A stretch of DNA of 64,000 bases from Deltaproteobacteria bacterium (GCA_020056965.1 JAGVGT010000065.1:1-64000), one strand, 5' to 3'; positions 962 through 17,974 are shown, counted from the first letter of the stretch. Translations and numbers: made by a program. Notes: a model not told the origin generated them from the sequence alone.

Positions 962-1139
962 GGTGGCGGCCCGGCTTCCGCCCCCAGCTTGTGTGTTGCT
1001 CCTTGGGCGCTCCAGCGTTTGGCATTGCCAGTCGTAGCGCGGGTGAAGCGCAGCACTGTTTGGCCATCGCCAAGGATAAATTTCGGCATGACCTTTAGAA
1101 AGCTTGTAAACAACCGATTCACATTGCCCGGAGTGTTTT

Positions 1140-2366
1140 ATGGCCAGGATTCTTTTTTGCTGGGAGGTGGGGGAAGGCTTCGGCCATCTCCTGCCTTATA
1201 AACCATTGTTCAAAGCCCTGCGAGACCGGGGCCATGAGCTGCTCTTCCTTCTGAAGGATTTGACCAACGCGGAAAAGGTTTTTTCCGGCCTCGACGTTGC
1301 CTATACCCAGTGCCCCAAACGGAATATGCAGGGGGGGCGCTTGTCTACGCCCCGTTCCTACCGGGATGTCCTGATCAACCAAGGGTTTCTCGAAGCGGAA
1401 CCGCTGCTGGCCCGGGTTAAGGGGTGGCTTACGCTGTTCGAGATGTGGCAGCCGGATTTGATTATCTTAAATCATTGTCCCACCGGCTTGCTGGCCGCCC
1501 GGCTTTATCCGGCCCGGCGGATGCACCTGGGCTGCGGTTTCTTCGTGCCGCCCCGCCGGGATCCCTGGCCGCAATACTTTGCCGGGCGGATGGCGGCGCC
1601 GGACCGGCAAGTCGCGGCGGAAAGTCTCACTCTGCTCGCCGCGATCAACCGGGTTCTTAAAGAATTGGGTGGCGAAAAACTGACCGAACTGGGGCAATTT
1701 TTCGAGGGTATCGAGACCTGCTTCACCACCTTCAAGGAACTGGATCACTACCCCAATCGCGAACCGGTTGAATATCTCGGCAGCATGCCGCCGGGATTAG
1801 GAGGTAAGGAGGCGGTTTGGCCGGAAGGGCCAGGACGGAAGGTCTTTGCTTATCTGAAACCCAACGGTCGGATCGAGGAGTTGCTGCACGCCCTGCGGGA
1901 GTTGGCGTTGCCGACCCTGGTGGTGGGACCGGATCTTCCCGAACCGCTGGTGCGTCGTTTTGCCTCGTCGCGGCTCGGATTTTCCCGGGGAATGTTGAAT
2001 TTATCCCAAGTGGGTCAGGAATGCGACCTGGCCATCACCAACGGCAATCAAAGCACGGTGACCAATCTGTTGCTGGCCGGCAAGCCTCTCCTCTCCTTTG
2101 CCATTCATGTGGAAAACTTTTTGGTGGGTGATGCCGTCAAACGGCTGGGGGCGGGGTTGCTGGTCAAGGCCACCGGTAGCGAACCGGTGGCGCCGGTTTT
2201 ACACGAGCTGTTGGCCGGCGAGAAATTTTTCGAAAATGCGGCGCGATTTGCCGAGTGTCACCGCGGGTACAACCCGGCCAAGACCGTGGCCCGGGTGGTC
2301 GAGAGGATCGAGGGTCCGGCGGCCGCGTCCGCGGCGGCGGCCGGTTTGACTGCGCGGCGTCCCTGA
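1140..2366 (+). CDS. UDP-glycosyltransferase-like protein (GT1/MurG fold)
   Basis: A 408-residue protein. The N-terminus (MARILFCWEVGEGFGHLLP) has the Gly-rich loop and His typical of the acceptor domain of GT-B glycosyltransferases such as UGT and MurG. The C-terminal half contains a donor-site-like stretch (CDLAITNGNQST ... LLLAGKPLLSFAIHVENF) where nucleotide-sugar binding is expected. The last 20 residues are Ala/Arg-rich and probably disordered. ATG 1140 is preceded by GGAG. Acceptor and sugar cannot be read from the sequence. It stands alone, about 180 bp after the HD-GYP gene and about 95 bp before the NUDIX gene. Confidence 0.75.
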   Translation: MARILFCWEVGEGFGHLLPYKPLFKALRDRGHELLFLLKDLTNAEKVFSGLDVAYTQCPKRNMQGGRLSTPRSYRDVLINQGFLEAEPLLARVKGWLTLFEMWQPDLIILNHCPTGLLAARLYPARRMHLGCGFFVPPRRDPWPQYFAGRMAAPDRQVAAESLTLLAAINRVLKELGGEKLTELGQFFEGIETCFTTFKELDHYPNREPVEYLGSMPPGLGGKEAVWPEGPGRKVFAYLKPNGRIEELLHALRELALPTLVVGPDLPEPLVRRFASSRLGFSRGMLNLSQVGQECDLAITNGNQSTVTNLLLAGKPLLSFAIHVENFLVGDAVKRLGAGLLVKATGSEPVAPVLHELLAGEKFFENAARFAECHRGYNPAKTVARVVERIEGPAAASAAAAGLTARRP

Positions 2367-2460
2367 AATCTCCCCCAGCCCATATTCAACCCCGCTGGTC
2401 GGTCGCTTAAGCCCATCGTCTCTCATCCTTGGTAATGATCCGAAGGGATAAAAGGAAAAC

Positions 2461-2973
2461 ATGAACAGCCCCAGCGAGATAGTTGTCATCGTCGATGCAG
2501 GAAACCTGGAGATCGGACAGGCCGGTCGCGCCGAGATGCGGGCGAGGCGGTTGATCCACCGGGCCTGCTATATCCTGGTGTTCAACCGCCTCGGTGAACT
2601 GTTTGTCCAGAAACGGACTTTGAGCAAGGACATCTATCCGGGTTTCTACGATGTGGCGGCCGGGGGGGTGGTTCTGGCCGGGGAAAGCTACGAGGAGTCG
2701 GCCCGCCGGGAACTTAAGGAAGAGCTGGGAATCTCGGCAGAGCTGACCTTTTGTTGCGACCATTTCCACGACGGTCAGGATAACCGGGTCTGGGGCCGGG
2801 TCTTCACTTGTCGCCACGATGGGCCTCTGCAGTTGCAGGCGGAAGAGGTGGCCGAGGGGTTTTTCCTGGCGGTACCCGAAGTTCGAGCCTTAAGCCGTCG
2901 CGAGCCATTCACTCCCGATGGCATTGAGATCATGGACCTTTGTCTACCACAAGTTCCGGAGGCGGCCAAGTGA
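2461..2973 (+). CDS. NUDIX hydrolase, IPP-isomerase/YfcD-like
   Basis: A 170-residue protein with a complete Nudix box (GGVVLAGESYEESARREL followed by KEELGI), i.e. G-x5-E-x7-RE-x2-EE-x-G. The flanking sequence (AGRAEMRARRLIHRACYILVFN) resembles the isopentenyl-diphosphate isomerase-like/YfcD branch of the superfamily. It would hydrolyse a nucleoside-diphosphate-linked substrate that cannot be named from sequence. ATG 2461 follows AAGGAAAAC, a usable ribosome-binding site. Its TGA overlaps the ATG of the next gene (ATGA at 2971-2975), so the two are very probably co-translated. Confidence 0.85.
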   Translation: MNSPSEIVVIVDAGNLEIGQAGRAEMRARRLIHRACYILVFNRLGELFVQKRTLSKDIYPGFYDVAAGGVVLAGESYEESARRELKEELGISAELTFCCDHFHDGQDNRVWGRVFTCRHDGPLQLQAEEVAEGFFLAVPEVRALSRREPFTPDGIEIMDLCLPQVPEAAK

Positions 2974-3791
2974 TGGCGGCGCGAATCGAAGACCCGCTGG
3001 TCGGGGTCGAGCCAGCTTTGGCCGCCCTCGTCAGCGGGGCGGCGGCCGCTGCATTAGAGGCCGGCGCCACCATCCGCAGTCTTTACGAGCAACCGCATCA
3101 GGTGCGCTTCAAAGGCGAGATTGATCTGGTCACCGAAGCGGATCTGGCCTCGGAAAAAATCATCATCGCCAGGCTGAATCGGGCGTTTCCGGCGGTTCCG
3201 GTGCTGGCCGAGGAGTCGAGTCCAGACTACCGGCAAATTCCCGCCGGGCCGGTGTGGATTATCGATCCACTGGATGGCACCACCAACTTCGCCCACGGCT
3301 TCCCGGTTTTTGCGGTTTCCATCGCTTACAGTGTCGATCGGCTCAGCCTGATCGGGATAATTTACTGCCCCCTGCAGGATGAATTATTTCTGGCCTGGCG
3401 CGGGGGCGGGGCCTGGTTAAACGGCCGGCGGCTGGCGGTGTCCCGCCGGGAACGGCTGGTAGAATCCCTGGTCGGTACGGGTTTTCCGTACGCCATCCGA
3501 GAAAATCTGGACGATGTGTTGGCCAAGTTGGGCAAAGTTCTGCCCCGGGTCCGGGACCTCCGGCGGGCCGGGGCGGCGGCGGTCGATCTGGCCTATGTGG
3601 CCTGTGGGAGGCTGGACGGTTTCTGGGAACGGGAGCTTAAACCCTGGGATACCGCGGCGGGCTATCTCCTGGTCGAGGAGGCCGGTGGCCGGGTGAGCGA
3701 TTTCGGCGGCGGGGCCTGGGATCCTTACCGAACTGAGATCCTGGCCAGCAACGCCATTCTGCACCGGAAGTTGGTCGAGCTGCTTGGCTGA
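2973..3791 (+). CDS. inositol monophosphatase family protein (SuhB-like)
   Basis: A 272-residue member of the Mg-dependent, Li-sensitive phosphatase superfamily. Visible motifs are AEESS (metal site 1), IDPLDGTTNFAHGFP (metal sites and Thr nucleophile activator) and WDTAAGYLLVEEAGG (C-terminal DxA motif). The enzyme would dephosphorylate inositol-1-phosphate or a related sugar phosphate. I chose ATG 2973 because it overlaps the upstream stop and follows GGAGG at 2957-2965; an upstream TTG in frame adds only 11 unconvincing residues. SuhB homologues can also act on rRNA transcription complexes, which cannot be judged here. Confidence 0.88.
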   Translation: MAARIEDPLVGVEPALAALVSGAAAAALEAGATIRSLYEQPHQVRFKGEIDLVTEADLASEKIIIARLNRAFPAVPVLAEESSPDYRQIPAGPVWIIDPLDGTTNFAHGFPVFAVSIAYSVDRLSLIGIIYCPLQDELFLAWRGGGAWLNGRRLAVSRRERLVESLVGTGFPYAIRENLDDVLAKLGKVLPRVRDLRRAGAAAVDLAYVACGRLDGFWERELKPWDTAAGYLLVEEAGGRVSDFGGGAWDPYRTEILASNAILHRKLVELLG

Positions 3792-4001
3792 TCTTGATAA
3801 TTTCCTTGACAACCAACGGGCTGACAGGAAAGATCAGGTGCCACGCGGTGGTATTTTCTGCCGTTGCGGCCGCTAGGTGATGTCTGCTCGTCTTCCGCTG
3901 ATTCCGGAATGATGTGGCTATTGATTAGTCCATCTGGAATAAATCCATAATCTCCCTTAAACATTTGCCCTGGCCAACCGGCCTCGATTAGGAAAATATT
4001 C

Positions 4002-6002
4002 ATGGAAAACAGGCTCATCGTTCAAAATCTCCCGGAACCGGTCATCACCATGAACGGCGAGGGGCGAATCCTCTCCTGGAACAGTGTCGCCGAGTCCAGC
4101 TTTGGTCTGCGGGACGACAGCTTCATTAGAAAGGAGCTTCGGGAGGTGATGTTCGTTTATCCCGACTGTGGCGAAGATCTCTTTCTCTCGCTTTTAGAAG
4201 TGCCTCCGGGCGTTCGTCTGGAGCGGACCATCCGGCGTGGAGATGGCCGCCTTTCCCCTTATGAGCTGCTGCTGACCAGAAATGTCCAGGACGGGGTACC
4301 CATTCATATCCTTTTTGCTCGTGACATCAGCGAACGCTGGCTAAGGGAGAAGAAGCTCAATCTCTCCTACCAGAACCAAAAGATCATGAACGCTATTCTG
4401 CAGATTTCGCTGATGCAGGTTTCCCTAGATCAGCAACTGGAGTTGATTCTTGATCAGATTCTCTCCATTCCGACCATTGAACTTCTGCCCAACGGGGCAA
4501 TCCTCCTGGCCGACACCGAACCGGGGATTCTGGCCCTTAAGGCGCAACGCGGGTTTTCCGAGCAACAGTTGGCCACTTGCGGGCGGGTGCCTTTCGGCAA
4601 GTGCCATTGCGGGCGGGCCGCGCAATCCGGGCTGCTCCAGTTTGTCCACTGCATTGATGAAACCCATGACTTTGTCTTTGACCGCATGAAGCCGCACGGC
4701 CACTACTGCGTGCCGATCATCTCCGATGGTTCGGTGTTGGGGGTAATTGCCCTCTACATTCAGGAGGGCCACAAATCATCGGAGTTGGAGGAGGAATCCC
4801 TGCACGCCATTGCCAACATTCTGGCCGGGGTCATCGAGCGCAAGAGGATGGAGGGGCAACTGGTCGGGCTGATCGGGCACCTTAAGCAGACCATCAAGGA
4901 GCTTGACGATGAACGCAAGTTCAACGAGTCGGTCATCACCAGCCTGGGTAGCGGTCTGGTGGCGGTGAGCTCCGAAGGGGTGGTGGAAAAGAGTAATCCG
5001 GCCGCCCGGCAACTGTTGGGCCGGGTTTCCCGGGTTGCGGTTGAGGGTGGCAGCTTAAACGAAATTCTGGGGGTCGAGGTAGCCGGTGAGATGACGTCGG
5101 CCAGTAGCCCTGCCAACGACCAGGGGCGCCGGGAGATCATGGTCAAGGAGAACGACGGCAATAAACAACTGATCCTTGAATATGCCACGGTTCCCCGGGA
5201 GGATGCCATGGGGGGAGAGGTGGGGAAGATCATCTCCTTTACCGATGTGACCGGGCTGAAAAAGATTCAGGCCGAAATGGAGAAGATGAATCGTTTCAGC
5301 ACCATCGCCGAGATTGCCTCGGCGGTGGCCCATGAGGTGAGAAACCCCCTGGCCGGGATCAGGACCATGACCCAGGTCATCGACGAGCAACTGGCGGACG
5401 GGGCGCCCCACAAGGAGTATACCCGCCGGATCATCAAGCAGGTGGACCGGCTCAACGAATTGCTGACCGAGTTCTTTACCTATGCCCGGCCGCCGGTGCC
5501 CAGCCGACGGCCGGTTTCCCTGGTCAAGGTCATGGAAGATATCAAACCCCTGGTGCATAGCCGGTTGCAGAAGAACGGGGTGACCCTGGTCGAGGACTAC
5601 GAAATTGACTTGCCGGATATTTTGGCTGATCCCAGCCAGGTCCAGCAGGTCTTTCTGAACCTCTTCCTTAATTCGCTGATGGCCATGAAAAGGACCGACG
5701 GGCAGATCGCGATCCGGGCTCGCTACATCGGGGCCGACCACAGTGAATTCGATTCCACCAAGTTTTCCTGGCTGCGGCCGGACAACCATTACGTAACGGT
5801 CTATTTCAGCGACGACGGCGGTGGGATGGAGCCGGAGGTGCTGGAAAAAGTCTTCGAACCTTTCTTTACCACCCGCCACGATGGTTCCGGCTTGGGGTTG
5901 TCGATTGTCTACCGGATTCTCAAGGAGAACAACGCCGGGATCATGGTGGAGAGTACCCCCGGCGCGGGTGCGACCTTCATCATTTTCTTCAGTACCGATT
6001 GA
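4002..6002 (+). CDS. PAS-GAF-PAS sensor histidine kinase
   Basis: A 666-residue cytoplasmic histidine kinase with no membrane segment. Domains in order: PAS (about 1-115), GAF (about 130-280), a short coiled coil, a second PAS (about 305-425), HisKA with the phospho-acceptor in AHEVRNPLAG (His444), and HATPase with N box (VFLNLFLNSLM), G1 box (DDGGGM), F box (EPFF) and G2 box (GSGLGLSIV). This is the NtrB-like class that usually partners NtrC-type regulators. Just such a regulator starts 124 bp downstream, so the pair is likely cognate. The GAF domain holds CHCGRAAQSG, reminiscent of a redox- or metal-sensitive GAF; ligand unknown. ATG 4002 follows AGGAAAAT. Confidence 0.9.
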   Translation: MENRLIVQNLPEPVITMNGEGRILSWNSVAESSFGLRDDSFIRKELREVMFVYPDCGEDLFLSLLEVPPGVRLERTIRRGDGRLSPYELLLTRNVQDGVPIHILFARDISERWLREKKLNLSYQNQKIMNAILQISLMQVSLDQQLELILDQILSIPTIELLPNGAILLADTEPGILALKAQRGFSEQQLATCGRVPFGKCHCGRAAQSGLLQFVHCIDETHDFVFDRMKPHGHYCVPIISDGSVLGVIALYIQEGHKSSELEEESLHAIANILAGVIERKRMEGQLVGLIGHLKQTIKELDDERKFNESVITSLGSGLVAVSSEGVVEKSNPAARQLLGRVSRVAVEGGSLNEILGVEVAGEMTSASSPANDQGRREIMVKENDGNKQLILEYATVPREDAMGGEVGKIISFTDVTGLKKIQAEMEKMNRFSTIAEIASAVAHEVRNPLAGIRTMTQVIDEQLADGAPHKEYTRRIIKQVDRLNELLTEFFTYARPPVPSRRPVSLVKVMEDIKPLVHSRLQKNGVTLVEDYEIDLPDILADPSQVQQVFLNLFLNSLMAMKRTDGQIAIRARYIGADHSEFDSTKFSWLRPDNHYVTVYFSDDGGGMEPEVLEKVFEPFFTTRHDGSGLGLSIVYRILKENNAGIMVESTPGAGATFIIFFSTD

Positions 6003-6126
6003 GTAATTGGCAGATTATAACCAGATTGGTCTGGGTGGTCAAAACGGCATTCCTCTAAGGCTATAGATAAACTAATAGCTGTAAGGCATAAATTGCACAG
6101 CTCATTTCATAACGGCTTCTAAGCAT

Positions 6127-7440
6127 ATGGGTAAGATACTAATTGTCGAGGATTCTCCCGACTTGCAGATGGTTCTGCGGGACTTGGTGGAGAAGGAAGG
6201 GTACGTGGCTTTTGTCGCCAACAGCGGGGCGGAAGCCCTGGCCGTGGCGCGCAGTCAGGTCCTCGACCTGGTTTTTCTGGACATCGGCCTGCCGGACTTG
6301 AGCGGTATTGAACTGATCGGTTCCCTGCAGCGCCTGATCCCCGATGTGGACGTGGTGATGCTGACCGCCGTCAACGATGCCCGGACGGCGGTGGAGGCCT
6401 TGAAGTCCGGGGCGATCGATTACATCCTCAAGCCCTTTGAACTCCTGGAGTTTCGGAAACTTCTCAACCGGTTGATGTCGGCCCGGCAGTCGGCCCGGCA
6501 GTTGCGCATCGATTCGCTGGAGAAAGGCCGGGGTTGGGAGCTGCTGGGACAGAGCCCGGTCATGATCGGTTTGCGCCAGCATATCGCCACCGCCGCCGCC
6601 GTCAAGGCCCCGGTCCTGATCTGCGGGGAAACCGGCACCGGCAAGGAGCTGGTCGCCCGGGCCTTGCACAGCCGCTCCGGGAAAGGGGTCTTCGTCAAGG
6701 TGGATTGCGGCACCCTCTCGGCCAGCATTATCGAGGCGGAACTTTTCGGGTATGAAAAGGGCGCCTTCACCGATGCTAAGGAGACTCGCAAGGGACTGGT
6801 CGAGGTGGCCGATGGCGGTATCCTTTTCCTGGACGAGATCGGCAATCTGCCTCTGGCCTTGCAGCCCAAGCTGCTGCGGCTCATCGAAGAGTCGGTGTTC
6901 CGGAGGGTGGGCGGGGTCCACGACATTCAGGTAAATGTCCGGATTGTTGCCGCTACCAATGTCAACATTGACGAGGAGATCCGCCAGGGGCGCTTCCGGG
7001 AAGACCTCTACTACCGGCTCAATGTGATCACCCTGGTGCCGCCACCACTACGGCAGCGGCGGGAGGATATCCTCCTGCTCGCCGACCACTACCTGCGTTT
7101 TTTTGCCGGCGAAATGAATAAGCGGCTGCGCGGTCTTACCCCGGAAACCGAGGAAGCCCTGCTGTCCTACGATTTCCCGGGCAACGTCCGGGAGTTGAAG
7201 AACCTCATCGAAAGGGCGGTCATCTACAGCCAGGGGGAACGGCTCTCCTTGGTGGGGCTGACCTCCCGTTCCGGAGGTGAGACGGCCGCTGTTCAGGAAC
7301 CTCGTGAATATCCGACCCTCCGGGAGATGGAAAAGAGTTACATTCAGCAGGTGTTGGACGCCGCCGGCCAGAATAAATCCCAGGCCGCCAGGACCTTGGG
7401 GATCTCCCGGGCGACCCTGCGCGAAAAACTCGGCAGCTGA
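6127..7440 (+). CDS. NtrC-family sigma-54-dependent response regulator
   Basis: A 437-residue regulator: receiver (1-120, phospho-acceptor Asp52 in DLVFLDIGLPD), AAA+ sigma-54 interaction domain with Walker A GETGTGKE, and a Fis-type helix-turn-helix at the C-terminus (NKSQAARTLGISRATLREKL). The sigma-54 contact loop reads GAFTDA rather than GAFTGA, a variant found in many functional homologues. It probably receives phosphate from the kinase at 4002-6002 and activates sigma-54 promoters. The target genes are not obvious from the sequence. Confidence 0.9.
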   Translation: MGKILIVEDSPDLQMVLRDLVEKEGYVAFVANSGAEALAVARSQVLDLVFLDIGLPDLSGIELIGSLQRLIPDVDVVMLTAVNDARTAVEALKSGAIDYILKPFELLEFRKLLNRLMSARQSARQLRIDSLEKGRGWELLGQSPVMIGLRQHIATAAAVKAPVLICGETGTGKELVARALHSRSGKGVFVKVDCGTLSASIIEAELFGYEKGAFTDAKETRKGLVEVADGGILFLDEIGNLPLALQPKLLRLIEESVFRRVGGVHDIQVNVRIVAATNVNIDEEIRQGRFREDLYYRLNVITLVPPPLRQRREDILLLADHYLRFFAGEMNKRLRGLTPETEEALLSYDFPGNVRELKNLIERAVIYSQGERLSLVGLTSRSGGETAAVQEPREYPTLREMEKSYIQQVLDAAGQNKSQAARTLGISRATLREKLGS

Positions 7441-7686
7441 TCAATTTTTTATCACCTGGCTGGAAATCGACCACCTGAGGTCGGCGCCATTTTTCTCCAG
7501 CCGGTTCGGTTTATTTTCGGTTCTGTATCCATAACTATCCATAATTATTAGCTGAATTTGCTGTTGCGCGCATGGTCGTGTTGCGTTGGCATGACTATTG
7601 ATATTCCATCATTTCAAATGAAAAAGATGAGGCGCGGTGGTCTGCTCCCCCTGCCGGACCAGGTGGGCAGGAAGTTCTATACAACG

Positions 7687-8904
7687 GTGAATGTTTTGGG
7701 CGAAAAAGAAAATTTAAAAAAAATCCTGATCGTTGATGACGAAGAGGACATGGTCTGGTCTCTGCGACAGAACATCAACAATGATTACCTGCAGGTCGAG
7801 ATCTTCACTGCGGCCTCTGGGGAAGAAGCCCTGACCGTATTGAGCAGCAATCACATCGATCTGGTGCTGACCGACATCCGGATGCCGGGGATGAGCGGGC
7901 TTGACCTGCTCCTGGAGGTGAAGAATCGCTTTCCCTACACCATGGTCATTATTATGACCGCCTTCCCCTCCAATGAATTCAAAAAAGAGGCCCTGTTGCG
8001 CGGCAGCCTGCATTTCATCGAAAAACCCTTCGATATCAAGGAGCTGCGTGATCTGATCCGCCACGCCCTGCGCGAGGAGAACGTCTTTAAGGGCACGGTC
8101 GCCGGAGTGGGGCTTGCCGATGTCATCCAGATCAATGGGTTGTCCAGGGCCACCTCGCTGCTGCGGGTCAAGCAGGGTGAGCAGCTGGGGGTGATCTATT
8201 TTCAGGAAGGTCAGGTGGTGCATGCCATGTGCGGTGACCTCGAAGGGGAGGACGCGTTTTTTAAGATCATGGAATTCACCGGAGGGCGGCTGGACAGCAT
8301 GTCCTTCAACGATCTGCCGGCTCGGACCATCAATGCGCCGGTCGAGGCGCTGATCATCGAAGCGGCCCGGAGACTCGACGAGAGCGGTGGTGGTGATTCG
8401 ACCGGGCCGGATTGTGCCGATATTGATCTGGAGGTCCAGATCAATGAGATAAAGTCAGCCCCCGCTGGGGGGGGAATAAACCATGGTTCCGGGTTGGCTT
8501 TTGCCGTGCAAACCGGTACCGAACCTGTTAACAGGGAGGATGAAATGAGCAGTCTTAAAGATCTATTGTCCGAGTTCACCAACATACCTGGCGTTAATAC
8601 GGCCTGTCTGGTCGGTCGAGATGGCTTTTTGCTTGACAGCATCGCCATGTCCGGCATTGATACCGAGATGATCGGCGCCATTGCCTCCAGCGGATTCGGT
8701 GCCTCGGAATCCATGGGCAAACAGCTGGGCAAGGGGGCCTTGAGCATGAGCATGATTGAATTCGCCAATGGTCCGGTCATGCTGTCACCGGTTGGCGACG
8801 ATGCCTTTTTGGTTATTGTTGCCGATAAGGACGCCAATCTGGGAATGATCCGCTTGAAAATCAAGAAACACGCCAGCCTCATTGCTGAGACTGCCGCCAT
8901 CTGA
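7687..8904 (+). CDS. response regulator with DUF4388 and C-terminal Roadblock/LC7 domain
   Basis: The frame stays open from TTG 7558; GTG 7687 puts the receiver motif KKILIVDDEED about 10 residues from the start and is my choice, but ATG 7618 is possible. Order: receiver (phospho-acceptor Asp in LVLTDIRMPG), a DUF4388/PatA-like region (GTVAGVGLADVIQI ... GVIYFQEGQVVHAMCGD), a Gly/Pro-rich linker of about 50 residues, then a Roadblock/LC7 domain of about 119 residues (NIPGVNTACLVGRDGFLLD ... IRLKIKKHASLIAE). Roadblock domains dimerise and commonly regulate Ras-like GTPases such as MglA. The linker-Roadblock junction carries a second strong start (8545), so the last domain may also be made alone. 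A receiver wired to a Roadblock domain suggests phosphorylation-controlled polarity or motility signalling (inference). Confidence 0.82.
   Translation: MNVLGEKENLKKILIVDDEEDMVWSLRQNINNDYLQVEIFTAASGEEALTVLSSNHIDLVLTDIRMPGMSGLDLLLEVKNRFPYTMVIIMTAFPSNEFKKEALLRGSLHFIEKPFDIKELRDLIRHALREENVFKGTVAGVGLADVIQINGLSRATSLLRVKQGEQLGVIYFQEGQVVHAMCGDLEGEDAFFKIMEFTGGRLDSMSFNDLPARTINAPVEALIIEAARRLDESGGGDSTGPDCADIDLEVQINEIKSAPAGGGINHGSGLAFAVQTGTEPVNREDEMSSLKDLLSEFTNIPGVNTACLVGRDGFLLDSIAMSGIDTEMIGAIASSGFGASESMGKQLGKGALSMSMIEFANGPVMLSPVGDDAFLVIVADKDANLGMIRLKIKKHASLIAETAAI
8545..8904 (+). CDS. possible free Roadblock/LC7 protein from an internal start
   Basis: Inside the preceding frame, ATG 8545 is preceded by GGGAGGA (8534-8540) at ideal spacing, following a low-complexity linker. 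Translation from here would give a 119-residue stand-alone Roadblock/LC7 protein, the normal size of MglB-like family members. Either the cell makes both a long and a short form, or two formerly separate genes have fused and kept the old initiation site. The sequence alone cannot decide which. Confidence 0.45.
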   Translation: MSSLKDLLSEFTNIPGVNTACLVGRDGFLLDSIAMSGIDTEMIGAIASSGFGASESMGKQLGKGALSMSMIEFANGPVMLSPVGDDAFLVIVADKDANLGMIRLKIKKHASLIAETAAI

Positions 8905-8936
8905 GGCGGTTATCCGAAACCTGGAGGTATTTTTTT

Positions 8937-9554
8937 ATGTCTGAAGGAAAGATCCTTGATATCGCGCACATCAGTTTCTTGGATATGATCAAGGTCATGA
9001 TCACCATGAGCGGCGCTGCCTCCGCCAAGGGCGCCCTGATCAGAAACGCGATTAACACCGCCGAGAAGATTAAAGAGGTTGATTATCCCACCTTCGAAGA
9101 TTTTCTGGCGGCCATTGAAAATTCCACTAATCCCATCACCCAGGTTGAGGGCAAGGCCACCCACCAGGGCGGGTTTGTCTTCGGCTTGACCAACTGTCCC
9201 TTTGGGCCGTCGATAAAAAATTATATGGGGGTCTTCGAAAAGTTGCCGGAGGGTTATGCGGATTTCACCGAAGAGTTCAACAAACCCAGCAAGGTCACCG
9301 AGATCTACCGGGTTGGTGAAGGCGCCGGAGTGAGTCCGTTCTGCTCGGTGCATCAGCCGATGCGCAGCGCCGTCGCCGAAAGAATCAGCATCGGTGGTAA
9401 GAAAATTAAGATTTACCAGTTGGGCTGTAAAGCCGGTTCTGGCAAGAAGGGGTTTGCCGACCGCTGGCTGGCGGAAACCGGGATCTCCCGGGAAGTGGTT
9501 GACAAGACCCTTGATAATCACATGTGCTGCTACTATCTGCAGATAGTCGATTAA
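8937..9554 (+). CDS. conserved cysteine-rich protein of unknown function
   Basis: A 205-residue soluble protein whose stop-start spacing to the Roadblock gene is only 32 bp, with GGAGG before ATG 8937. I do not recognise a named domain with certainty. Its second half has an arrangement of Cys/His residues that looks like a metal or Fe-S site: Cys87 (NCPFGPS), Cys136 and His139 (PFCSVHQPMRSA), Cys164 (YQLGCKAGSG) and Cys197-Cys198 (HMCCYYLQ). The layout faintly recalls V4R-type small-molecule sensor domains. Position in the cluster suggests a sensory or adaptor role with the Roadblock and ParA-like proteins, which is inference. Confidence 0.75.
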   Translation: MSEGKILDIAHISFLDMIKVMITMSGAASAKGALIRNAINTAEKIKEVDYPTFEDFLAAIENSTNPITQVEGKATHQGGFVFGLTNCPFGPSIKNYMGVFEKLPEGYADFTEEFNKPSKVTEIYRVGEGAGVSPFCSVHQPMRSAVAERISIGGKKIKIYQLGCKAGSGKKGFADRWLAETGISREVVDKTLDNHMCCYYLQIVD

Positions 9555-9759
9555 GGACGGTCGCGTAATAAATTGGGCTATTGTCTTGTTTTGCGACTCC
9601 TTCTGCAGTCATGGTAAGTAAGAATTGCCTGGGCAATATTTTTTCAACGGCTTTTCTGCCGTTTGGCTGTCCAGAGCGACCGGATGATTATGTTGTGACG
9701 GCTTAATGGCCACCGTCTTGCCTCAGGCCAATGGAACACTGTCCAAAAACGACAACAAA

Positions 9760-10986
9760 ATGAACAGAAAAATTGCCGTATTGAGTCAGAAGGGTGGGGT
9801 AGGCAAGACCACCATCGCCTTGAATCTGGCCTACTCATTGTGTCGGATTGGCGGCATGAAGATCATGGTCATCGATGCCGATCTCCAAGGGGGGATCGCC
9901 TCGGCGGTCAATCTGAAGCCGGATAAGGGATTGGTGCAGATTCTTCGGGGCGAATGCAGTTTAAAGGAAGCCCTGATTCCCTTGAAGGGTGACAACCTGG
10001 TTTTGCTGGCCAACGGCATCCAAGTCCCGGAAGATATTCTTTTTCTCGAAGAACAGGCCATCTCCGGGGAGTTGCGGGCGATTTTAGCGGTGTTCGGGGA
10101 GTACGATTTCGTGCTCTACGATTCACCGGCCGGCATCGGCGCCATAAGTCGGGAAATTCTTGCGGTCTGTAACAGCTTTATCCAGGTTATCGACTGTCGG
10201 GCCGGCACGGTCAAGAGCATGGCCAAGCTCCTGAAGCTTTCCAGTTGGATAAAGAGACAGGTCAATCCAGGCCTCTATCTTGAAGGAGTGGTGGTCAATC
10301 GTTTTCGCCCGGAGAGCGTCATTCAGGCCAAGATTCTTGAGCGGGTAAAATCGCGTTTTCCGGCCCGTTTGTTTTTTGAAACCCTGATCGTTGATGACCC
10401 GGTATTCGAGCATGCCTCCATCAAAGGCTTGCCGGTGGAGAGGTTTGCCGACGGCAAGCAGGCGACCAAGGCCTTTCTGGCGATGGCCATCGAGGTCTGC
10501 GCCAAGAAAATGCAGTCCCAGGAAGATATTAACGCCCTGGCCGGTTTGGCCTTGGGGGACGAGGTCGGTGACCTTGGGCAGCTGTTCAGGAAGGAAGGGG
10601 ATGAGGCCCTCAGCAAGACCCCTATCCATGGAGACCGGGTTACTGAAATTCTGCGGGAGCTTTGCGGCAACTGCGGCTGCCGGGGCGCGGTGGTGGCCGA
10701 CGAGATGGGGCTGCCGCTGGCCGAGCATCAAAGCCCCTTCGGGGTGGATGCCCTGGCGACCTATGGTTCAATTCTAGGCGAGGCATTGGTTGGGGCCGAC
10801 AATATTCTGAAGATGTCCGAGGCCAACAATATCGTCATGGACATCAATGATGATGAGAAGTTGGTAATGCGCCGTTTTCCCATCATGGACAGCAACTATT
10901 TCTTGCTCGCAGTCTGTCCCCAAGAGGCCGAGGTGCTTGGCGAGCTGGAGTATGCCACTGATCGGATCGCTGCCGAGTTGTACTAA
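9760..10986 (+). CDS. ParA/MinD-like ATPase with C-terminal Roadblock-like domain
   Basis: A 408-residue protein. Residues 1-255 are a ParA/MinD-type deviant-Walker P-loop ATPase: SQKGGVGKTTIALNLAYSL at the N-terminus, VIDADLQGG (Walker A') and YDFVLYDSPAGIG (Walker B). Residues about 290-408 (GCRGAVVADEMGLPLAEHQ ... YFLLAVCPQEAEVLGELEYA) have the length and pattern of a Roadblock/LC7 domain, in the place where MinD has its membrane-targeting helix. ATG 9760 directly precedes the ATPase fold; an in-frame ATG at 9706 would add 18 residues. Neither has a clear ribosome-binding site. ParA-family ATPases position cellular machines, so this fusion could link positioning to Roadblock signalling (inference). 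Confidence 0.8.
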   Translation: MNRKIAVLSQKGGVGKTTIALNLAYSLCRIGGMKIMVIDADLQGGIASAVNLKPDKGLVQILRGECSLKEALIPLKGDNLVLLANGIQVPEDILFLEEQAISGELRAILAVFGEYDFVLYDSPAGIGAISREILAVCNSFIQVIDCRAGTVKSMAKLLKLSSWIKRQVNPGLYLEGVVVNRFRPESVIQAKILERVKSRFPARLFFETLIVDDPVFEHASIKGLPVERFADGKQATKAFLAMAIEVCAKKMQSQEDINALAGLALGDEVGDLGQLFRKEGDEALSKTPIHGDRVTEILRELCGNCGCRGAVVADEMGLPLAEHQSPFGVDALATYGSILGEALVGADNILKMSEANNIVMDINDDEKLVMRRFPIMDSNYFLLAVCPQEAEVLGELEYATDRIAAELY

Positions 10987-11177
10987 GCCGTTATTGGATG
11001 TCGTGTCCCGGCCTTTAGAGCGTAGCGAATGGTCAGAAAATGTGATGGGGTGCCTTTCGTAACGGCAGCTGATCGCCGCTCGCGTAGGGACGGTTGGTCG
11101 TGGCTGTCCCTCCTGCCTACTGTTGCATCTCCTGGGCGAAGTGGCGGTGTGATGCTCGAAGAGTCTGGTCGGAGGTT
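10987..11177. other. convergent intergenic spacer
   Basis: The 191 bp between the converging ParA-like and PilZ genes contain no credible frame. A degenerate palindrome near 11086-11120 (GTAGGGACGG ... CTGTCCCTCC) resembles the GGACGGCTC hairpin at 37500. No clean terminator with a T-run is seen. Confidence 0.4.
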
Positions 11178-12338
11178 CTAATCCGGCCGTCCCGGCAAAC
11201 TTTCCTCAGTCGTCATCTGCCGTGAGGTGGCCCCCACGGCATTGGCGAAGACTATCAGCAGCCCCCGCAGCCGCGGCGGCATTTCATTAAACTGGATACC
11301 GATGGCGTAAGTGTCTTCGCCATCCAGGTCAGTTTCCTTGTACCAAGCCAACCGCCCAAGAATAGTCAGAGAGATGGACTCGTCCGGCAGGCTGATACTC
11401 AGTCTGGTTTTCCGGTTTACCATGTCCTCAATGGGCAGATCCCGGTATCTGGGATCGACAATTACGCACACCCCGCCCAAGGACATGTCACTGGTGAAAC
11501 ACTTGACGACAACCGGGTATTTGCCTGGGTCTCTGGCGAAAATCTCCAGATGCAGGGTGATGGAGAGATGTCGTCGGGAGGTCTTTCGGTAAAATTTGGT
11601 CGGTTTGTCCTCTTCTGCAAGGGCTTGGTCTTCCATGAGCCCCTTCAGGCCGATCTGGAGGTCGGGATGTTCCCAGCAGAGGGTCAGTAGATCCGGTTTA
11701 GATATCTTGAGCAGTTCAACCTCGGTCAGGGTCTTGACCAGATTCCCGTGGCTTTTCTCCGCCGAGTAAGGATAGCGATCTCCGAAAAAATCGTTCTCCC
11801 TGAGGATGCAGGCATGGTCCCCCCCCTGGGGCCCATTGTCATCGGGGGCGGTTGAAGCCAGGTTCCCGTAGACTACCAGAAACAATGAGTCCTCGACTTC
11901 TCCGGCCTTACGGACGACGCTGTGCGGGGGGTATCTTACCAGTACGCCTTTTTTTAGTACCGCCGACAGCTCACGGTGGGACATTTTGGCAAAGCATTCG
12001 GCGATGGCCGAGGAGTGTGAGTCTTTGCGCCGCAACTGTGAATGCAGGAGGCGAAAGTCGTTGGGGGTGGGGCGAATTATCGCCCAGGCACGTAACAGGG
12101 CTGCGATGCCTTGCAGGCTTTTGCCCTGCTCCATGAAGAGATGGTAGGCCTTTCGGTAGGTCTTGTCGGCCTCGATGAACGATTTGTTGCCTTTATGGAA
12201 ATCAGCCAGAAGTCGGTAAAGCCACGGATCGCTCGGAGAGTTTTTCAGTGCTTTTCGGAATTCGTCACCGCTGCACAATTTTCTGGTTCCGCTGATCAGC
12301 TGCTCAAAAACACTGTCGGCAGTTATTTCTCCGGCCAT
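11178..12338 (-). CDS. cyclic-nucleotide-binding-like and PilZ domain protein with TPR-like N-terminus
   Basis: A 386-residue cytoplasmic protein. Residues about 35-100 form TPR-like helices (DPWLYRLLADFHKGNKSF ...). Residues about 125-255 fit a cNMP/CRP-type beta-barrel (LKKGVLVRYPPHSVVRKAGE ... DSLFLVVYGNLAS ... ENDFFGDRYPYS). Residues about 265-375 are a PilZ domain with the c-di-GMP-binding arginines in RKTSRRH and the DMSLGG motif. It would respond to c-di-GMP and perhaps a second nucleotide. ATG 12338 is chosen over TTG 12347. It is transcribed toward the ParA-like gene, so it is a neighbour rather than an operon member. Confidence 0.85.
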   Translation of the reverse strand: MAGEITADSVFEQLISGTRKLCSGDEFRKALKNSPSDPWLYRLLADFHKGNKSFIEADKTYRKAYHLFMEQGKSLQGIAALLRAWAIIRPTPNDFRLLHSQLRRKDSHSSAIAECFAKMSHRELSAVLKKGVLVRYPPHSVVRKAGEVEDSLFLVVYGNLASTAPDDNGPQGGDHACILRENDFFGDRYPYSAEKSHGNLVKTLTEVELLKISKPDLLTLCWEHPDLQIGLKGLMEDQALAEEDKPTKFYRKTSRRHLSITLHLEIFARDPGKYPVVVKCFTSDMSLGGVCVIVDPRYRDLPIEDMVNRKTRLSISLPDESISLTILGRLAWYKETDLDGEDTYAIGIQFNEMPPRLRGLLIVFANAVGATSRQMTTEESLPGRPD

Positions 12339-12603
12339 AAGAACCAACTTGAAGGTAGAGTGGTAATTTGCATCGGTTGATGCGGGAATCTTGAAGACGA
12401 TTTCGATTATAACATTCGAGTAATGCCTGTGCCATTAATAAAGTCCTCATGCCAGTCCACAGGTTAGATCAGGTTAGAAGCGATCTCAGTTTGGGTTTGC
12501 CGGTATTTTCTGGAAGATAGTTGTTTGAGAGCCAAGCTTGGATAGGTTATATTTTGTCGGGTTTGTTTGCTTACGGGGTGACGCTTTCGCAAAGGAGGAA
12601 TCG

Positions 12604-13110
12604 ATGAAAAAAATTAGTTCGCTAACAGTGATGTGCCTGATAATTTTCTTGTTTATAGGTGGAGTTGGGCGAGCCGAGCAGCACGATCGGCTGCTACCAC
12701 TTCTGGGTAACTTGGAGAGGTGGCAGACTCAACCGGCTAAAGGGATGAGTCTGGTTTCGGCGCAGATGAAGATGATCAGTGCAAGTCGTATATATAACCA
12801 GGCCGATAAGAATTTGAACGTGACCATCATGGTGAACAGCGGACCGGTCTTGGACAGCGATCTCCAGGAGTCCAGTTCCGACAACGAGGTCACCAGGGAA
12901 CAGACTCAGCTGATTGACGGCTTCTGGGTAAAGTCCAGTCACAACAAAAAAAGTAGTTCCGGTGAGTTAATCGTTTATCTTGACTACAATCAGGATGCCA
13001 GTGGTCTGCTGGTGGCTGATTACTCGCAAATGAGCGATGACGAGGTTTTGAAGGTTGTCAGAAGTATGGATTGGGTGAAGATTAAGGGGGTTGTGTCTAA
13101 GTTGTTGTGA
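12604..13110 (+). CDS. exported protein of unknown function
   Basis: A 168-residue protein with a typical signal peptide (MKKISSLTVMCLIIFLFIGG ... GRAEQ). The mature part has no motif I recognise; it starts with a segment rich in Leu/Arg/Gln (HDRLLPLLGNLERWQTQPAK) and is otherwise polar and beta-rich. ATG 12604 is preceded by AAAGGAGGAATCG, an almost perfect ribosome-binding site, which rules out the longer frame from 12538. It likely acts in the periplasm or on the envelope. Confidence 0.8.
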   Translation: MKKISSLTVMCLIIFLFIGGVGRAEQHDRLLPLLGNLERWQTQPAKGMSLVSAQMKMISASRIYNQADKNLNVTIMVNSGPVLDSDLQESSSDNEVTREQTQLIDGFWVKSSHNKKSSSGELIVYLDYNQDASGLLVADYSQMSDDEVLKVVRSMDWVKIKGVVSKLL

Positions 13111-13261
13111 AGTTGTTGTCAGTGAACCTCGGGTGGAGTGGAAAAGATGTTAGCGCATTCATTTTTTTCTTGCCGAACCTGTTTCGTGTTGTTAGAGAAA
13201 CCTGAGTTGTGTAAGGCTGTATGGTGGTAAGTGTTTCATTATCAACTTGGGGGTAGCAACT

Positions 13262-13474
13262 ATGTCAGAGCGGCAAACTGGGGTGGTGAAGTGGTTCAAT
13301 ACGGCTAAAGGTTGGGGGTTTATCACCAGCGCGTCTGGGGATGATGTTTTCGTCCATTACCGGGAGATCCGGGGGGACGGCTTCAAGAACCTCGAAGAGG
13401 GGCAGACGGTGGAGTTCAGTGTAATTGAAAGCCAGAAGGGGTTGGCGGCAGCCGATGTCCATGGCGTTGAATGA
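13262..13474 (+). CDS. cold-shock domain protein (CspA family)
   Basis: A 70-residue single cold-shock domain. RNP1 is KGWGFIT and RNP2 is DDVFVHY; ATG 13262 fits the family start ([13 protein letters not shown]), whereas the in-frame TTG at 13247 does not. Cold-shock proteins bind single-stranded RNA/DNA and melt secondary structure. The 150-nt untranslated-looking leader is compatible with the long leaders of csp genes, but I could not identify a specific thermosensor fold. A strong terminator follows. Confidence 0.95.
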
Positions 13475-13525
13475 CGAGAGTGGGACGAGCGGGACAGCAA
13501 TCTTGTCCTAGGCGATAATTTTCCG

Positions 13526-13559
13526 ATGGGGGCCGAATTAAATCGGCCCCCATTTTTTT
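13526..13559 (+). terminator. intrinsic terminator after cold-shock gene
   Basis: An 11-bp stem (ATGGGGGCCGA / TCGGCCCCCAT, loop ATTAAA) is followed by a run of seven T. It lies about 50 nt downstream of the cold-shock stop codon. Confidence 0.92.
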
Positions 13560-13644
13560 GTCTTCACTGTGCTGGTGACTTGAGATTCGGGGGATAGGCC
13601 CGGCAGTCCTCTTGGGTGGGGGCTGTGAGAGCGGTTTCGGCTGA

Positions 13645-13685
13645 TAATACGACAAAGCCGGCCGTTGGCCGGCTTTGTCGTATTA
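13645..13685. terminator. perfect 19-bp palindrome between convergent genes
   Basis: A perfect 19-bp inverted repeat (TAATACGACAAAGCCGGCC on the left arm) with a 3-nt GTT loop. It lies 18 bp from the stop of the Bax-inhibitor-like gene and could terminate transcription from that gene. T residues within and after the arm are limited, so the mechanism may be a stable hairpin rather than a canonical T-tract. Confidence 0.7.
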
Positions 13686-13702
13686 CGGGTATGCGGTCAT
13701 GC

Positions 13703-14422
13703 CTACCGGCGGTCGCCTAGTAACCTCAGCAAGCTGAGGAACAGGTTAATGAAATCCAGGTAGAGGCTGAGTGCGCCCATGATCGCACCCTTGCGGATGG
13801 CGCTGTTTCCCTCGGTCATGACGCTGCCGCCGAATCTGGAAATTTTCTGGATATCGTAGGCGGTCAGACCGGTGAAGACGAGGACGCCGATGACCGAAAT
13901 AGCCCACTCCACCGCCGGGCTGTGCATGAACATGTTAACCAGACTGGCCAGGATGATGCCGATCAGACCCATGAACATGAAGGAGCCCATGCCGGTAAGA
14001 TCCCGTTTGGTGACGGTTCCGTAAACGGCCATGGCCGCAAACATGCCGCCGGCCACGGCAAAGGTGGTGGCTACCGAGGCTGCGGTGTACATCAGGAGTA
14101 CCGCAGCCATGGTCACGCCGTTCAGGGCCGAGTAGATCAAAAACAGGGCGGTTGCTGTGGTGGCGGTCATTTTTTCAATGCGGGCGGAAAGGTAGAGTAC
14201 CATCCCTAGTTCGCCGAAGATGAGGGCGTAAAAGACCAGCTTGTTGCCGAAAATCAGTTGCTGGGCGGCGGGAGAATTGGCTACTGCAAAGGCCAAACCG
14301 GCGGTGAGGGCCAGGCCTACCGCCATCCAGTTGAATACCTTTGCCAGAAAAGTTGTGGTGACCTGGGCGGCCGCCGGGTTCAGCGGATATGACGACCGTT
14401 GCTGGTCATGCTGTCCAAACAT
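13703..14422 (-). CDS. Bax inhibitor-1/YccA family membrane protein
   Basis: A 239-residue inner-membrane protein with about seven hydrophobic segments. Family features include the N-terminal segment TTFLAKVFNWMAVGLALTAG and the near-C-terminal TAYDIQKISRFG, which holds the conserved Asp of the BI-1 calcium/proton sensor. Bacterial members are thought to be pH-sensitive calcium leak channels or regulators of membrane protease FtsH. ATG 14422 follows an AGGAGC sequence. Single gene, converging on the cold-shock gene. Confidence 0.93.
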   Translation of the reverse strand: MFGQHDQQRSSYPLNPAAAQVTTTFLAKVFNWMAVGLALTAGLAFAVANSPAAQQLIFGNKLVFYALIFGELGMVLYLSARIEKMTATTATALFLIYSALNGVTMAAVLLMYTAASVATTFAVAGGMFAAMAVYGTVTKRDLTGMGSFMFMGLIGIILASLVNMFMHSPAVEWAISVIGVLVFTGLTAYDIQKISRFGGSVMTEGNSAIRKGAIMGALSLYLDFINLFLSLLRLLGDRR

Positions 14423-14735
14423 TGTTGCTCCTCCGATGATGACTGCGTGTTTAGGGCGATCCCGTAATGTTGTGATGTCTGTTTTCAGGTTTGGTTGAAA
14501 AATCAGGCTCTCGTTCCCGTCAAATCCTTAATTATAAGAACTCGGGGTGGAGTATTTGTGGTTACGTGCTGTTTACGAATTGTATCACGAACAAGCAGTT
14601 TAATCATTCTGTGGCATGGCGCAAGCGAAAACGCCAACAGCTGACACAGCCGAAACAGCGGGTGGTTCGGTGATCTTGGGTTGACAAAGTTATACACATG
14701 AACCTGAATTGTAATTATATAGTTTTCCTGGGTCT
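14423..14735. other. divergent intergenic region with putative promoters
   Basis: 313 bp of AT-rich DNA separate the divergent Bax-inhibitor-like gene and the unknown gene at 14736. TTGACA at 14682-14687 could be a -35 element for the rightward gene, but no convincing -10 lies at the right distance. No credible gene is present. Confidence 0.4.
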
Positions 14736-15455
14736 GTGCTCCCAGAGACCAGTGAGGGAAAAGTAGATTGGCGCAAACTTTCGCAGTTGAGGCTGCCTGA
14801 GCCTGTGTTAGCAAACGGCTTTGTGCTCTGGCTTGATTTAAACAGTTTGGTGGTGGTGATGGGCGATAATCCCGGTCCGATCGGCAAAAAGTGGTACGAA
14901 AATTATCTGCCGTTTGTGGCCAAAAGTCCGGCGATTCAGGCTGAGTGGCTGGTTGTCGAACTCTCGCGGCTGAGGCTTTCAGAAGGTAAAGAAATAAGCG
15001 GAGTGTTGTCCAGAGAGGAAATCAAGCCCTATATCCGTTTGTTTCTGGAAAATTGCGATACCGGCTTGGGTGGATGGACGGGTGAGGTTGGCGCGGATGA
15101 GCAGATGGTTGCCCTGCTGGAGGAGATCGGCGAGGACAATATACTGCTGATGATTGAATGCGCAGAAATCTATGACATTCCGAAACTCTTCAAACTATTG
15201 GGTCATCCGACCCTGGAACAGGCGGTGATAGCTTTGAAGAAGGTCTCGCCACCTTATGAGAAGAATCCGCTGCTCATCATCGACCGGGTATTTCACGCCA
15301 TCCGGGAGAAATCCGGGCAGCTACTGGAGGAGGCAGCGGCCGGGGTGCTGGTCAGTAGTGATGCCCCGGCGGACTTTGCCGACAATTACGAAAGATTTAA
15401 GGAGATCATGATGGACGAACACATTCTTGGTCTTCTATATCCTAAGGCCAAATAG
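14736..15455 (+). CDS. conserved hypothetical protein
   Basis: A 239-residue soluble, largely helical protein that I do not recognise. There is no signal peptide, transmembrane segment or clear catalytic motif. The second half (EIYDIPKLFKLLGHPTLEQA ... NPLLIIDRVFHAIREKSG) looks like helical hairpins. GTG 14736 gives the longest product; there is no strong ribosome-binding site, so a shorter start is possible. It is followed within 20 bp by a bidirectional terminator, so it forms a single-gene unit. Confidence 0.7.
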   Translation: MLPETSEGKVDWRKLSQLRLPEPVLANGFVLWLDLNSLVVVMGDNPGPIGKKWYENYLPFVAKSPAIQAEWLVVELSRLRLSEGKEISGVLSREEIKPYIRLFLENCDTGLGGWTGEVGADEQMVALLEEIGEDNILLMIECAEIYDIPKLFKLLGHPTLEQAVIALKKVSPPYEKNPLLIIDRVFHAIREKSGQLLEEAAAGVLVSSDAPADFADNYERFKEIMMDEHILGLLYPKAK

Positions 15456-15473
15456 CTGTCCAAAAATGGTAAA

Positions 15474-15499
15474 AAAACCGTGCCGAGTGGCACGGTTTT
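15474..15499. terminator. bidirectional intrinsic terminator
   Basis: An 11-bp stem (AAAACCGTGCC / GGCACGGTTTT, loop GAGT) with an A-tract before and T-rich sequence after. It lies between the convergent gene at 14736 and the PxxKW gene and can serve both strands. Confidence 0.9.
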
Positions 15500-15517
15500 C
15501 GTTGTCCAAAGCCGCAG

Positions 15518-15802
15518 TTACTTGCGGCCGGACATGGCCCGTTTCGATGCTTTCAGCGGGTTGACCTTGGTCTTGGCGGTGGCCAGTTCTAGCTTGACGT
15601 GGGTGGCAAAGTTGCATAAACCCAAGCGCCATTTGGCTTCTGGGGATACGTAGGTCTTGCAATACTTCGTATCGGCGGCTTCAACTATACGCTCACATCC
15701 TTCGCACTTTTCAGAGATCGGATTGAATAATCCACTGCTGTAGCGAGCTAATGGGTCAGTGCCGTCAGACTTACCGGTTTTTGCTGAAGTTGGTTGAGCC
15801 AT
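15518..15802 (-). CDS. PxxKW family cysteine-rich protein
   Basis: A 94-residue protein matching the small PxxKW family seen mainly in Desulfobacterota: CEGCERI, KYCKTYVSPEAKW (the PxxKW motif), then GLCNFATHV. Four cysteines plus a His make a metal or Fe-S site plausible, but the family has no established function to my knowledge. ATG 15802 is preceded on its strand by AGGAGGAAC; the longer frame to 15835 lacks such a site. The C-terminus is Lys-rich. Confidence 0.85.
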   Translation of the reverse strand: MAQPTSAKTGKSDGTDPLARYSSGLFNPISEKCEGCERIVEAADTKYCKTYVSPEAKWRLGLCNFATHVKLELATAKTKVNPLKASKRAMSGRK

Positions 15803-15835
15803 GTTGTTCCTCCTGAGCTGCCTGAAGGCAGCCAA

Positions 15836-16391
15836 AAAAATATCGGTTATTTTTATTTAGATGTTGGGAGACTGTTATTATCAGTTCTCAATAAGTGAGC
15901 CAATTTTTTTATCTTAAATAACCTTCAATGTCAATATCAAATAAGTAAACATGATGTTGTCGAGGAGTTGATTAGGGCAGTCTGATCTGGTAGAATTACC
16001 GAGGGTTATGCGAGGCTAATTGTAATTAATTCAGTTAGTTGCTTTCGCCGTTGCCGGCATATTTATTTCGTCTTTCGATATTTCCAGGATGTTTTAATCT
16101 GCCGGTGTTTCTCGGTGTAGATGGTGCGTGTGTCGGAATTATTCTATTGATTTTAATGAGTTATTTATTTATAAATTTTTTTTGAAGGATATCCATCGCA
16201 GGCGGACGCCAGGTTGATACCGGGCTTGGTGCCGTTATTCGGGCCGCTGATATTTGACTCCCAGGAACACGCTTGATGGGTCGTAGATAAAGACCATGCG
16301 AAATTAAGTCATTATTGCCTGTTGTTCTGGGCATGACGAAGTTCCTCGGCATACTTAACAAAGAGCCGGTTACGCTATGAGGTGTTAAATC
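15836..16391. other. 556-bp AT-rich gene-free region
   Basis: No credible gene was found on either strand. AT-rich DNA to about 16180 is followed by a GC-richer 16185-16360 stretch in which short frames look like decayed coding sequence (VDTGLGAVIRAADI in one frame, interrupted by stops). It likely holds promoters for the PxxKW and PilC-like genes; I could not fit a known riboswitch. Confidence 0.4.
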
Positions 16392-17597: not shown

Positions 17598-17686
17598 TCT
17601 GGGGCAAGCTGAATTGCCGACCGATGAAATACTGTTCCAGGTCGGGCGGTTCTCCTGGTGTGGGTTGTTTCCTTCTGAGGTGTGCT

Positions 17687-17974
17687 ATGACTCTGACCAA
17701 AGCTGAAATTATTCAGACCGTTTATCAGAAGCACGATCTGACCAAGGCCCAAGCGGCCGAGGCCGTAGAGGCGTTTCTCCGGATTGCCAAGGATTGCATG
17801 ATCAAGGGCGACGACCTTCTGCTCAGTGGTTTCGGTAAGTTCAATGTCAAGAAGAAGAACTCCCGCCGTGGGCGTAATCCCCAGACCGGCAAGGAACTGA
17901 TTCTTGAGGCCCGTCACGTCGTGACTTTTAAGCCCTCTGGGATTCTGCGGGAACGCATTACCAACGGTAGTTAA
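17687..17974 (+). CDS. ihfA: integration host factor subunit alpha
   Basis: A 95-residue HU/IHF family DNA-bending protein. MTLTKAEIIQTVYQK begins the fold and the DNA-binding arm contains RRGRNPQTGKEL; the order Asn-Pro at the arm tip is the intercalating proline pair position. The wording of the N-terminus (LTKAEI) fits IHF alpha better than HU. ATG 17687 follows TGAGG; the longer frame from 17624 has no support. IHF is a co-factor at sigma-54 promoters, relevant to the NtrC regulator at 6127. Confidence 0.9.
   Translation: MTLTKAEIIQTVYQKHDLTKAQAAEAVEAFLRIAKDCMIKGDDLLLSGFGKFNVKKKNSRRGRNPQTGKELILEARHVVTFKPSGILRERITNGS

Follow-up and report, generated by a model that had tools for sequence, protein, structure and literature searches.

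A conserved Roadblock and cysteine-rich orphan gene pair with a probable sigma54-type promoter in a deltaproteobacterial signaling island

Small GTPases are the best-known partners of Roadblock proteins. The island described here lies at positions 4002–12338 of a 64,000-nucleotide stretch of DNA (the window; GCA_020056965.1 JAGVGT010000065.1:1-64000) from a Deltaproteobacteria bacterium; the stretch opens contig C5 of a metagenome-assembled genome (MAG) of 3.08 Mb and 90% completeness. The island's invariant Roadblock partner is an undescribed family with five conserved cysteines (hereafter the orphan), present in two phyla, and a ParA-type positioning ATPase encoded nearby carries a predicted Roadblock domain of its own. 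The original prediction for this DNA had put the ATPase at the center of the island; that place belongs to the Roadblock-orphan pair, which is under probable sigma54/NtrC control, and the ATPase is dispensable. The module is real and conserved, is a variant of Roadblock signaling and, judging by the literature searched, is undescribed as a set. We tentatively read it as a conserved two-tier signaling module whose output is most likely an envelope machine such as the type IV pilus, a proposal that falls somewhat short of probable. The analysis thereby defines a testable new Roadblock partner and a probable sigma54-controlled operon.

Conservation of the Roadblock-orphan pair

Genes for a PAS/GAF kinase, an NtrC regulator, a response regulator (RR) with receiver (REC), DUF4388 (PATAN) and Roadblock domains, the orphan and a ParA-Roadblock protein run in one direction in the window, with a gene for a cyclic nucleotide (cNMP)-binding and PilZ protein converging on them. 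Pfam confirmed this predicted gene set and its domain calls, apart from the Roadblock domain of the ParA protein (see below), with the orphan lacking a family match. The RR gene probably occupies 7687–8904 on the plus strand, with DUF4388/PATAN at about 8089–8382 and Roadblock/LC7 at about 8560–8823. Pfam matches were obtained for REC (E 4e-25), DUF4388 (E 2e-15) and Robl_LC7 (E 8e-18), the last at 64.4 bits against a curated cut-off of 23, which identifies the domain as Roadblock/LC7. The orphan gene follows at 8937–9554 on the same strand and encodes 205 residues.

The orphan and the ParA-Roadblock protein were sought in 116 related genomes, 13 of which contain the orphan. When 84,980 species genomes were scanned, 37 loci with the orphan were recovered, among which Nitrospirota are numerous; 38 distinct loci, the window included, were left after de-duplication. 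All relatives of the island come from MAGs, either of Desulfobacterota and other deltaproteobacteria or of Nitrospirota, and thus represent at least two phyla; orphan-bearing relatives are filed as Desulfobacterales, Desulfobulbales and 'Deltaproteobacteria' in public records.

A Roadblock domain is encoded on the same strand immediately beside the orphan in 36 of the 38 distinct loci (34 upstream, 2 downstream). The exceptions are L073, with a Roadblock gene 4.9 kb upstream of the orphan, and L096, which has none. The partner is a REC-PATAN-Roadblock protein in most loci, PATAN-Roadblock in L100 and a lone Roadblock in L085, L086, L088, L098 and L099. Since the architecture of the partner varies, the conserved unit is the pair of Roadblock domain and orphan, and no larger protein. 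The order kinase-NtrC-RR-orphan is widely kept among the loci, in line with the expectation that these genes stay together in related genomes, and chance grouping is excluded because the set is conserved elsewhere. In L085, L086, L088 and L098–L100, the Roadblock partner is retained even though the surroundings yielded no homologue of the kinase or of NtrC. The Roadblock domain and the orphan, rather than the ATPase, are the invariant core of the island.

In three Nitrospirota loci (L085, L086 and L088), the orphan gene stands between genes for a lone Roadblock protein and a second, probably membrane-anchored Roadblock protein with N-terminal hydrophobic stretches. Genes for ExeA/PEP-CTERM-type ATPases are close by in these loci, along with one for a conserved protein of 426–431 residues with an N-terminal membrane helix.

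Promoter and transcription unit

A probable sigma54 -24/-12 box, TGGCATGACTATTGAT, lies at 7587–7602 on the plus strand, ahead of the RR-Roadblock and orphan genes. The sigma54 consensus used has GG at -24 and GC at -12 (TGGCAY-N5-TTGC); the window box has GA instead of the canonical GC at -12 and is missed by a stricter scan demanding GC there, and the loci were therefore compared with the relaxed pattern TGGCAY-N5-TTG. Such a box was located ahead of the RR gene in 20 of the 28 distinct loci, as compared with 0.012 expected per locus from a background of the same sequences. The Nitrospirota boxes are mostly textbook sigma54 elements, about 28–49 bp 5′ of the start of the RR receiver domain. 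The longest open reading frame of the window RR gene begins at 7558; because of the position of the box, and because RR homologues align from about residue 44, translation probably starts later, at about 7687.

Upstream of the box lie the genes for an NtrC-type sigma54-activating response regulator (6127–7440, plus strand; REC, sigma54 AAA+ and HTH_8 by Pfam), co-conserved immediately 5′ of the RR-Roadblock gene, and for a sensor histidine kinase (4002–6002, plus strand; PAS-GAF-PAS-HisKA-HATPase by Pfam). The kinase contains no hydrophobic stretch of transmembrane strength and is predicted to be soluble; homologues with 40–55% identity occupy the equivalent position in Desulfobacterota loci. 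Little or no sequence separates the kinase gene from the NtrC gene, and a gap of about 100–300 bp is usual between the NtrC and RR genes. Thus, with the box in front of the RR gene, the RR and orphan genes look like a separate transcription unit, which NtrC probably drives from the sigma54 promoter. From its position, we infer the neighboring NtrC to be the obvious activator of the box.

In the 3.08-Mb genome, the window box is one of 27 such matches (7 for the reversed pattern). Other copies precede genes that, by sequence reading, are AmtB-, oxidase- (cbb3-oxidase-like), NrfD- and HD-GYP-like. The TTGAT variant found in the window also stands ahead of the AmtB-like gene; the departure from GC at -12 therefore does not have to mean loss of function. 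No pilus regulon was seen among the genomic sigma54-type sites read by eye.

The ParA-Roadblock protein and its neighbors

The ATPase gene (9706–10986, plus strand) encodes a ParA/MinD-type domain at residues of about 20–265, identified by a deviant Walker A motif (KGGVGKT, residues 29–35), a match to AAA_31 (E 4e-24) and a Foldseek match to Soj/ParA (E 3e-16). The motif and the Soj-like fold are shared with the cargo-positioning ATPases Soj, McdA, FlhG and PomZ; in contrast to these, the island protein has a fused C-terminal region (residues of about 308–425, nucleotides 10627–10980) predicted to be a Roadblock domain. In the window protein, this region falls below the Pfam cut-off and gives no direct Robl match. 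Comparison with the Roadblock profile by hhalign gave E 7e-6 over 105 columns, at a probability of 84%, with controls at E 0.03 or worse. The predicted order of helices (H) and strands (E), H308–323, E, E, H346–368, E, E, E, H411–425, is that of the Roadblock fold (α-ββ-α-βββ-α). Other genomes from this order encode ParA and the Roadblock-like part as separate neighboring genes, and the stand-alone parts are weak Pfam Roadblock matches (E 0.016–0.039). By profile comparison and predicted secondary structure, the C-terminus is a Roadblock domain, as originally proposed. A search of the literature found no paper joining Roadblock to a ParA fusion or to a bacterial V4R operon.

Full-length ParA-Roadblock proteins occur in 12 of the 116 related genomes, 11 of which also have the orphan; the exceptions to co-occurrence are two genomes with the orphan alone and one with ParA-Roadblock alone (Fisher p 1e-12, without phylogenetic correction). 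The two genes lie within 6 kb of each other in 16 loci, such that the predicted linkage recurs. They are on the same strand in four of these (the window, L044, L046 and L047) and on opposite strands in the other 12, where ParA-Roadblock is therefore not co-transcribed. ParA-Roadblock was not found in any of the 14 Nitrospirota loci; for some of these, the downstream sequence is short. Three further loci without it (L052, L056 and L091) have a lone convergent Roadblock protein at the same place; together with the predicted Roadblock fold of the ParA C-terminus, this replacement suggests Roadblock-Roadblock pairing. ParA-Roadblock is a frequent but dispensable neighbor of the core.

The cNMP-binding and PilZ protein, identified by Pfam, is encoded at 11178–12347 on the minus strand and is convergent in the window. 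In L045, L048 and L053, its gene immediately precedes that of ParA-Roadblock and shares its strand; its presence in the window is therefore not accidental, and its assignment to the set was justified.

A second ParA-Roadblock system, without the orphan, was found in L057 (9187–15843), L059 and L060. It clusters a lone Roadblock, an ODP-type diiron/oxygen-sensor-like protein, an HD-domain histidine kinase, a REC-PATAN protein, ParA and a separate Roadblock-like protein.

Sequence and predicted fold of the orphan family

The orphan has no relative in Pfam, NCBIfam or the PDB sequences. Comparison of 13 family members with Pfam gave nothing worth noting at E ≤ 10, and a phylum-wide profile search found no distant relatives (3 of 297 genomes matched). 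Homologues are 52–86% identical, and conservation is much higher in the orphan than in its neighbors. The conserved residues include Cys87, Cys136, Cys164, Cys197, Cys198 and His139, with the five cysteine columns invariant apart from Cys136 in L096. That copy (6391–7050) is the sole orphan without a Roadblock neighbor and also the sole one with Cys136 changed, to tryptophan; it is possibly decoupled or decaying.

The AlphaFold2 (AF2) model of the orphan is confident, with a predicted local distance difference test (pLDDT) score of 89. A Foldseek search with the model gave no significant PDB match (best E 0.08, template modeling (TM) scores mostly 0.3–0.4 and no higher than about 0.4, root mean square deviations mostly 6–8 Å); ranks 1–28 were all PoxR/MopR/DmpR (V4R), TRAPP Bet3/Trs33 or BcsD. 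V4R sensors, TRAPP and BcsD have been grouped as structural relatives of Asgard TRAPPC3, and four-cysteine zinc or metal sites are reported among the prokaryotic members (PMC10933270); the orphan has five conserved cysteines. The fold of this superfamily places helices on one side of a four-stranded antiparallel sheet. The orphan model shares with its members paired N-terminal helices, a helix starting with cysteine followed by a strand ending in cysteine, and a C-terminal strand beginning with cysteine. The Cys136-Cys164 spacing of 28 resembles that of V4R (26 in L101). In contrast to the superfamily, the orphan carries about 25 extra residues between its final two cysteine positions and has no Pfam V4R or TRAPP match. 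Alignment to the V4R profile by hhalign was not significant (E 0.04, probability 1.3%), though the best among the V4R, Roadblock, PATAN and ParA profiles. The GxxxG pairs in helices 2 and 5 that mark Bet3/V4R proteins (PMC2253512) are missing, as GxxxG occurs in the orphan only at 79, 127 and 163 and not in helices 27–43 or 136–147. The predicted fold is weakly V4R/TRAPP-like, a lead rather than membership.

It is quite unlikely, on this evidence, that the orphan is a bacterial TRAPP/Bet3-fold protein in an obligate complex with Roadblock-fold proteins, that is, a bacterial counterpart of the TRAPP core pairing (longin/roadblock-like with Bet3-like) placed under two-component signaling and a ParA ATPase instead of Rab. 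If the orphan did have the TRAPP/V4R fold, both fold types of the core of TRAPP, a vesicle-tethering complex of eukaryotes, would occur together in bacterial operons, with a bearing on the origin of TRAPP.

A 153-residue protein encoded beside the orphan and Roadblock genes in L098 (11142–11600) and L099 (6383–6841) has an NCxF...PFxCP pattern similar to that of the orphan and weak relatives in only 2 of 247 genomes. Its assignment as V4R-like was considered and rejected: it relied on a by-eye match ('NCaF...PFgCPf..L'), the ATC_hydrolase match (E 0.07) is below the Pfam cut-off, and hhalign was unsupportive.

Proposed mechanism and alternatives

The proposal draws on the observed domains, conserved gene linkage, sigma54-type box and co-occurrence. 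In the first tier of the proposed module, the soluble PAS-GAF-PAS kinase would activate the NtrC regulator, presumably by phosphotransfer, and NtrC would turn on the REC-PATAN-Roadblock and orphan genes via the sigma54 promoter. In the second, the two products would assemble into a stable complex: the Roadblock domain would provide a dimerization platform, the orphan would bind a metal or ligand and act as the regulatory partner, and the receiver domain would tune the complex through phosphorylation. In Desulfobacterota, a second Roadblock domain, usually fused to ParA/MinD, would pair with the first and link the complex to a surface-patterning ATPase, and the cNMP/PilZ protein may provide a second-messenger input. 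Through PATAN, the module would most likely govern where an envelope machine such as the type IV pilus is placed or how active it is. In cyanobacteria, type IV pili are a target of PATAN response regulators; PixE, for instance, acts on PilB1 (PMC7690835). A polarity or pilus output is suggested by the PATAN domain together with a PilB-associated paralogous cluster on contig C85 (see below). The ExeA/PEP-CTERM-type ATPase genes near the pair in three Nitrospirota loci, and the occurrence of PATAN genes near MglA/MglB, were also weighed here; we favor an envelope machine as the output, with little certainty.

Several points weigh against this reading. Eight of the 28 loci lack an exact box, and the -12 element departs from GC (to GA or GT) in the window and several relatives. 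The other readable copies of the box in the genome stand before metabolic genes. ParA-Roadblock is on the opposite strand in most (12 of 16) linked loci, and the conserved set at the locus includes no pilus or motility gene.

Among known systems, the Streptomyces conservons (kinase, CvnB Roadblock, CvnC and the CvnD GTPase) likewise combine a kinase, a Roadblock protein and a conserved unknown protein in each operon, a likeness of operon make-up. In the island, the GTPase is replaced by nothing or by ParA, and a response regulator and NtrC are present. The polarity modules of MglA/MglB/RomR type, from Myxococcus xanthus and others, share Roadblock proteins, a receiver-domain protein and PATAN neighbors with the island, and differ in that the island has no GTPase and does have a cysteine-rich invariant partner, ParA with its own Roadblock domain and a sigma54-type promoter.

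The original claim that the island lacks a Ras-like GTPase holds for the window locus, where none was found, but not for the genome. On contig C85 (L063, C85:46001-66000), at 6910–13948, the gene of an MglB-like Roadblock protein is directly followed by that of an MglA-like GTPase (Ras E 6e-7), and the row continues with an unknown 651-residue protein, a TPR-PilB-like ATPase and a second REC-PATAN-Roadblock protein, paralogous to that of the island. A tblastn search of the orphan loci with the genome's own MglA matched L073 only. This locus (1128–10618) encodes, on one strand and within about 9.5 kb, PATAN, an MglB-like Roadblock, an MglA-like GTPase, PATAN, a Ser/Thr kinase, Roadblock and the orphan, the last about 7 kb downstream of MglA, MglB and the two PATAN genes; this arrangement was seen in a single genome. 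MglA is neither lost nor demonstrably replaced.

These observations bear on the alternative that both Roadblock proteins regulate the MglA encoded on C85, in which case the island would feed an accessory input into an ordinary MglA/MglB polarity system, comparable to RomX/RomY or MglC in Myxococcus. The C85 row and the arrangement in L073 argue for it, as does the record of PATAN genes near MglA/MglB (PMC4316618), but tblastn found no MglA-like gene at any orphan locus other than L073, and we consider it doubtful.

An ordinary two-component operon is unlikely. Here, the kinase and NtrC would sense redox or metabolic state, the orphan would bind metal as a sensor or an enzyme, and Roadblock would serve dimerization only, with no positioning function. 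The generic, soluble kinase and NtrC fit such an operon, as do the high conservation of the orphan, with five cysteines as expected of a metal or redox center, and the sigma54-type sites before genes read as AmtB-like and cbb3-oxidase-like. However, it leaves the co-occurrence of ParA-Roadblock and the PATAN domain unexplained, and the Roadblock partner persists in the six loci where no kinase or NtrC was found nearby.

The initial suggestion that the ParA ATPase replaces MglA as a nucleotide switch governed by the Roadblock protein draws on the missing GTPase near the window locus, the 16 linked loci and the very strong co-occurrence, but is highly improbable: the core stands without ParA-Roadblock in 14 Nitrospirota loci and is accompanied by a lone Roadblock in another three, MglA is present in the same genome and MglA/MglB at L073, and the ATPase has its Roadblock domain fused in cis, unlike MglA, which is acted on in trans by MglB.

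Chromosomal setting

The gene order 3′ of the island (13703–19324 of the window) is the same in L044 and L046, which belong to the same family. The island is therefore at a fixed chromosomal place there.

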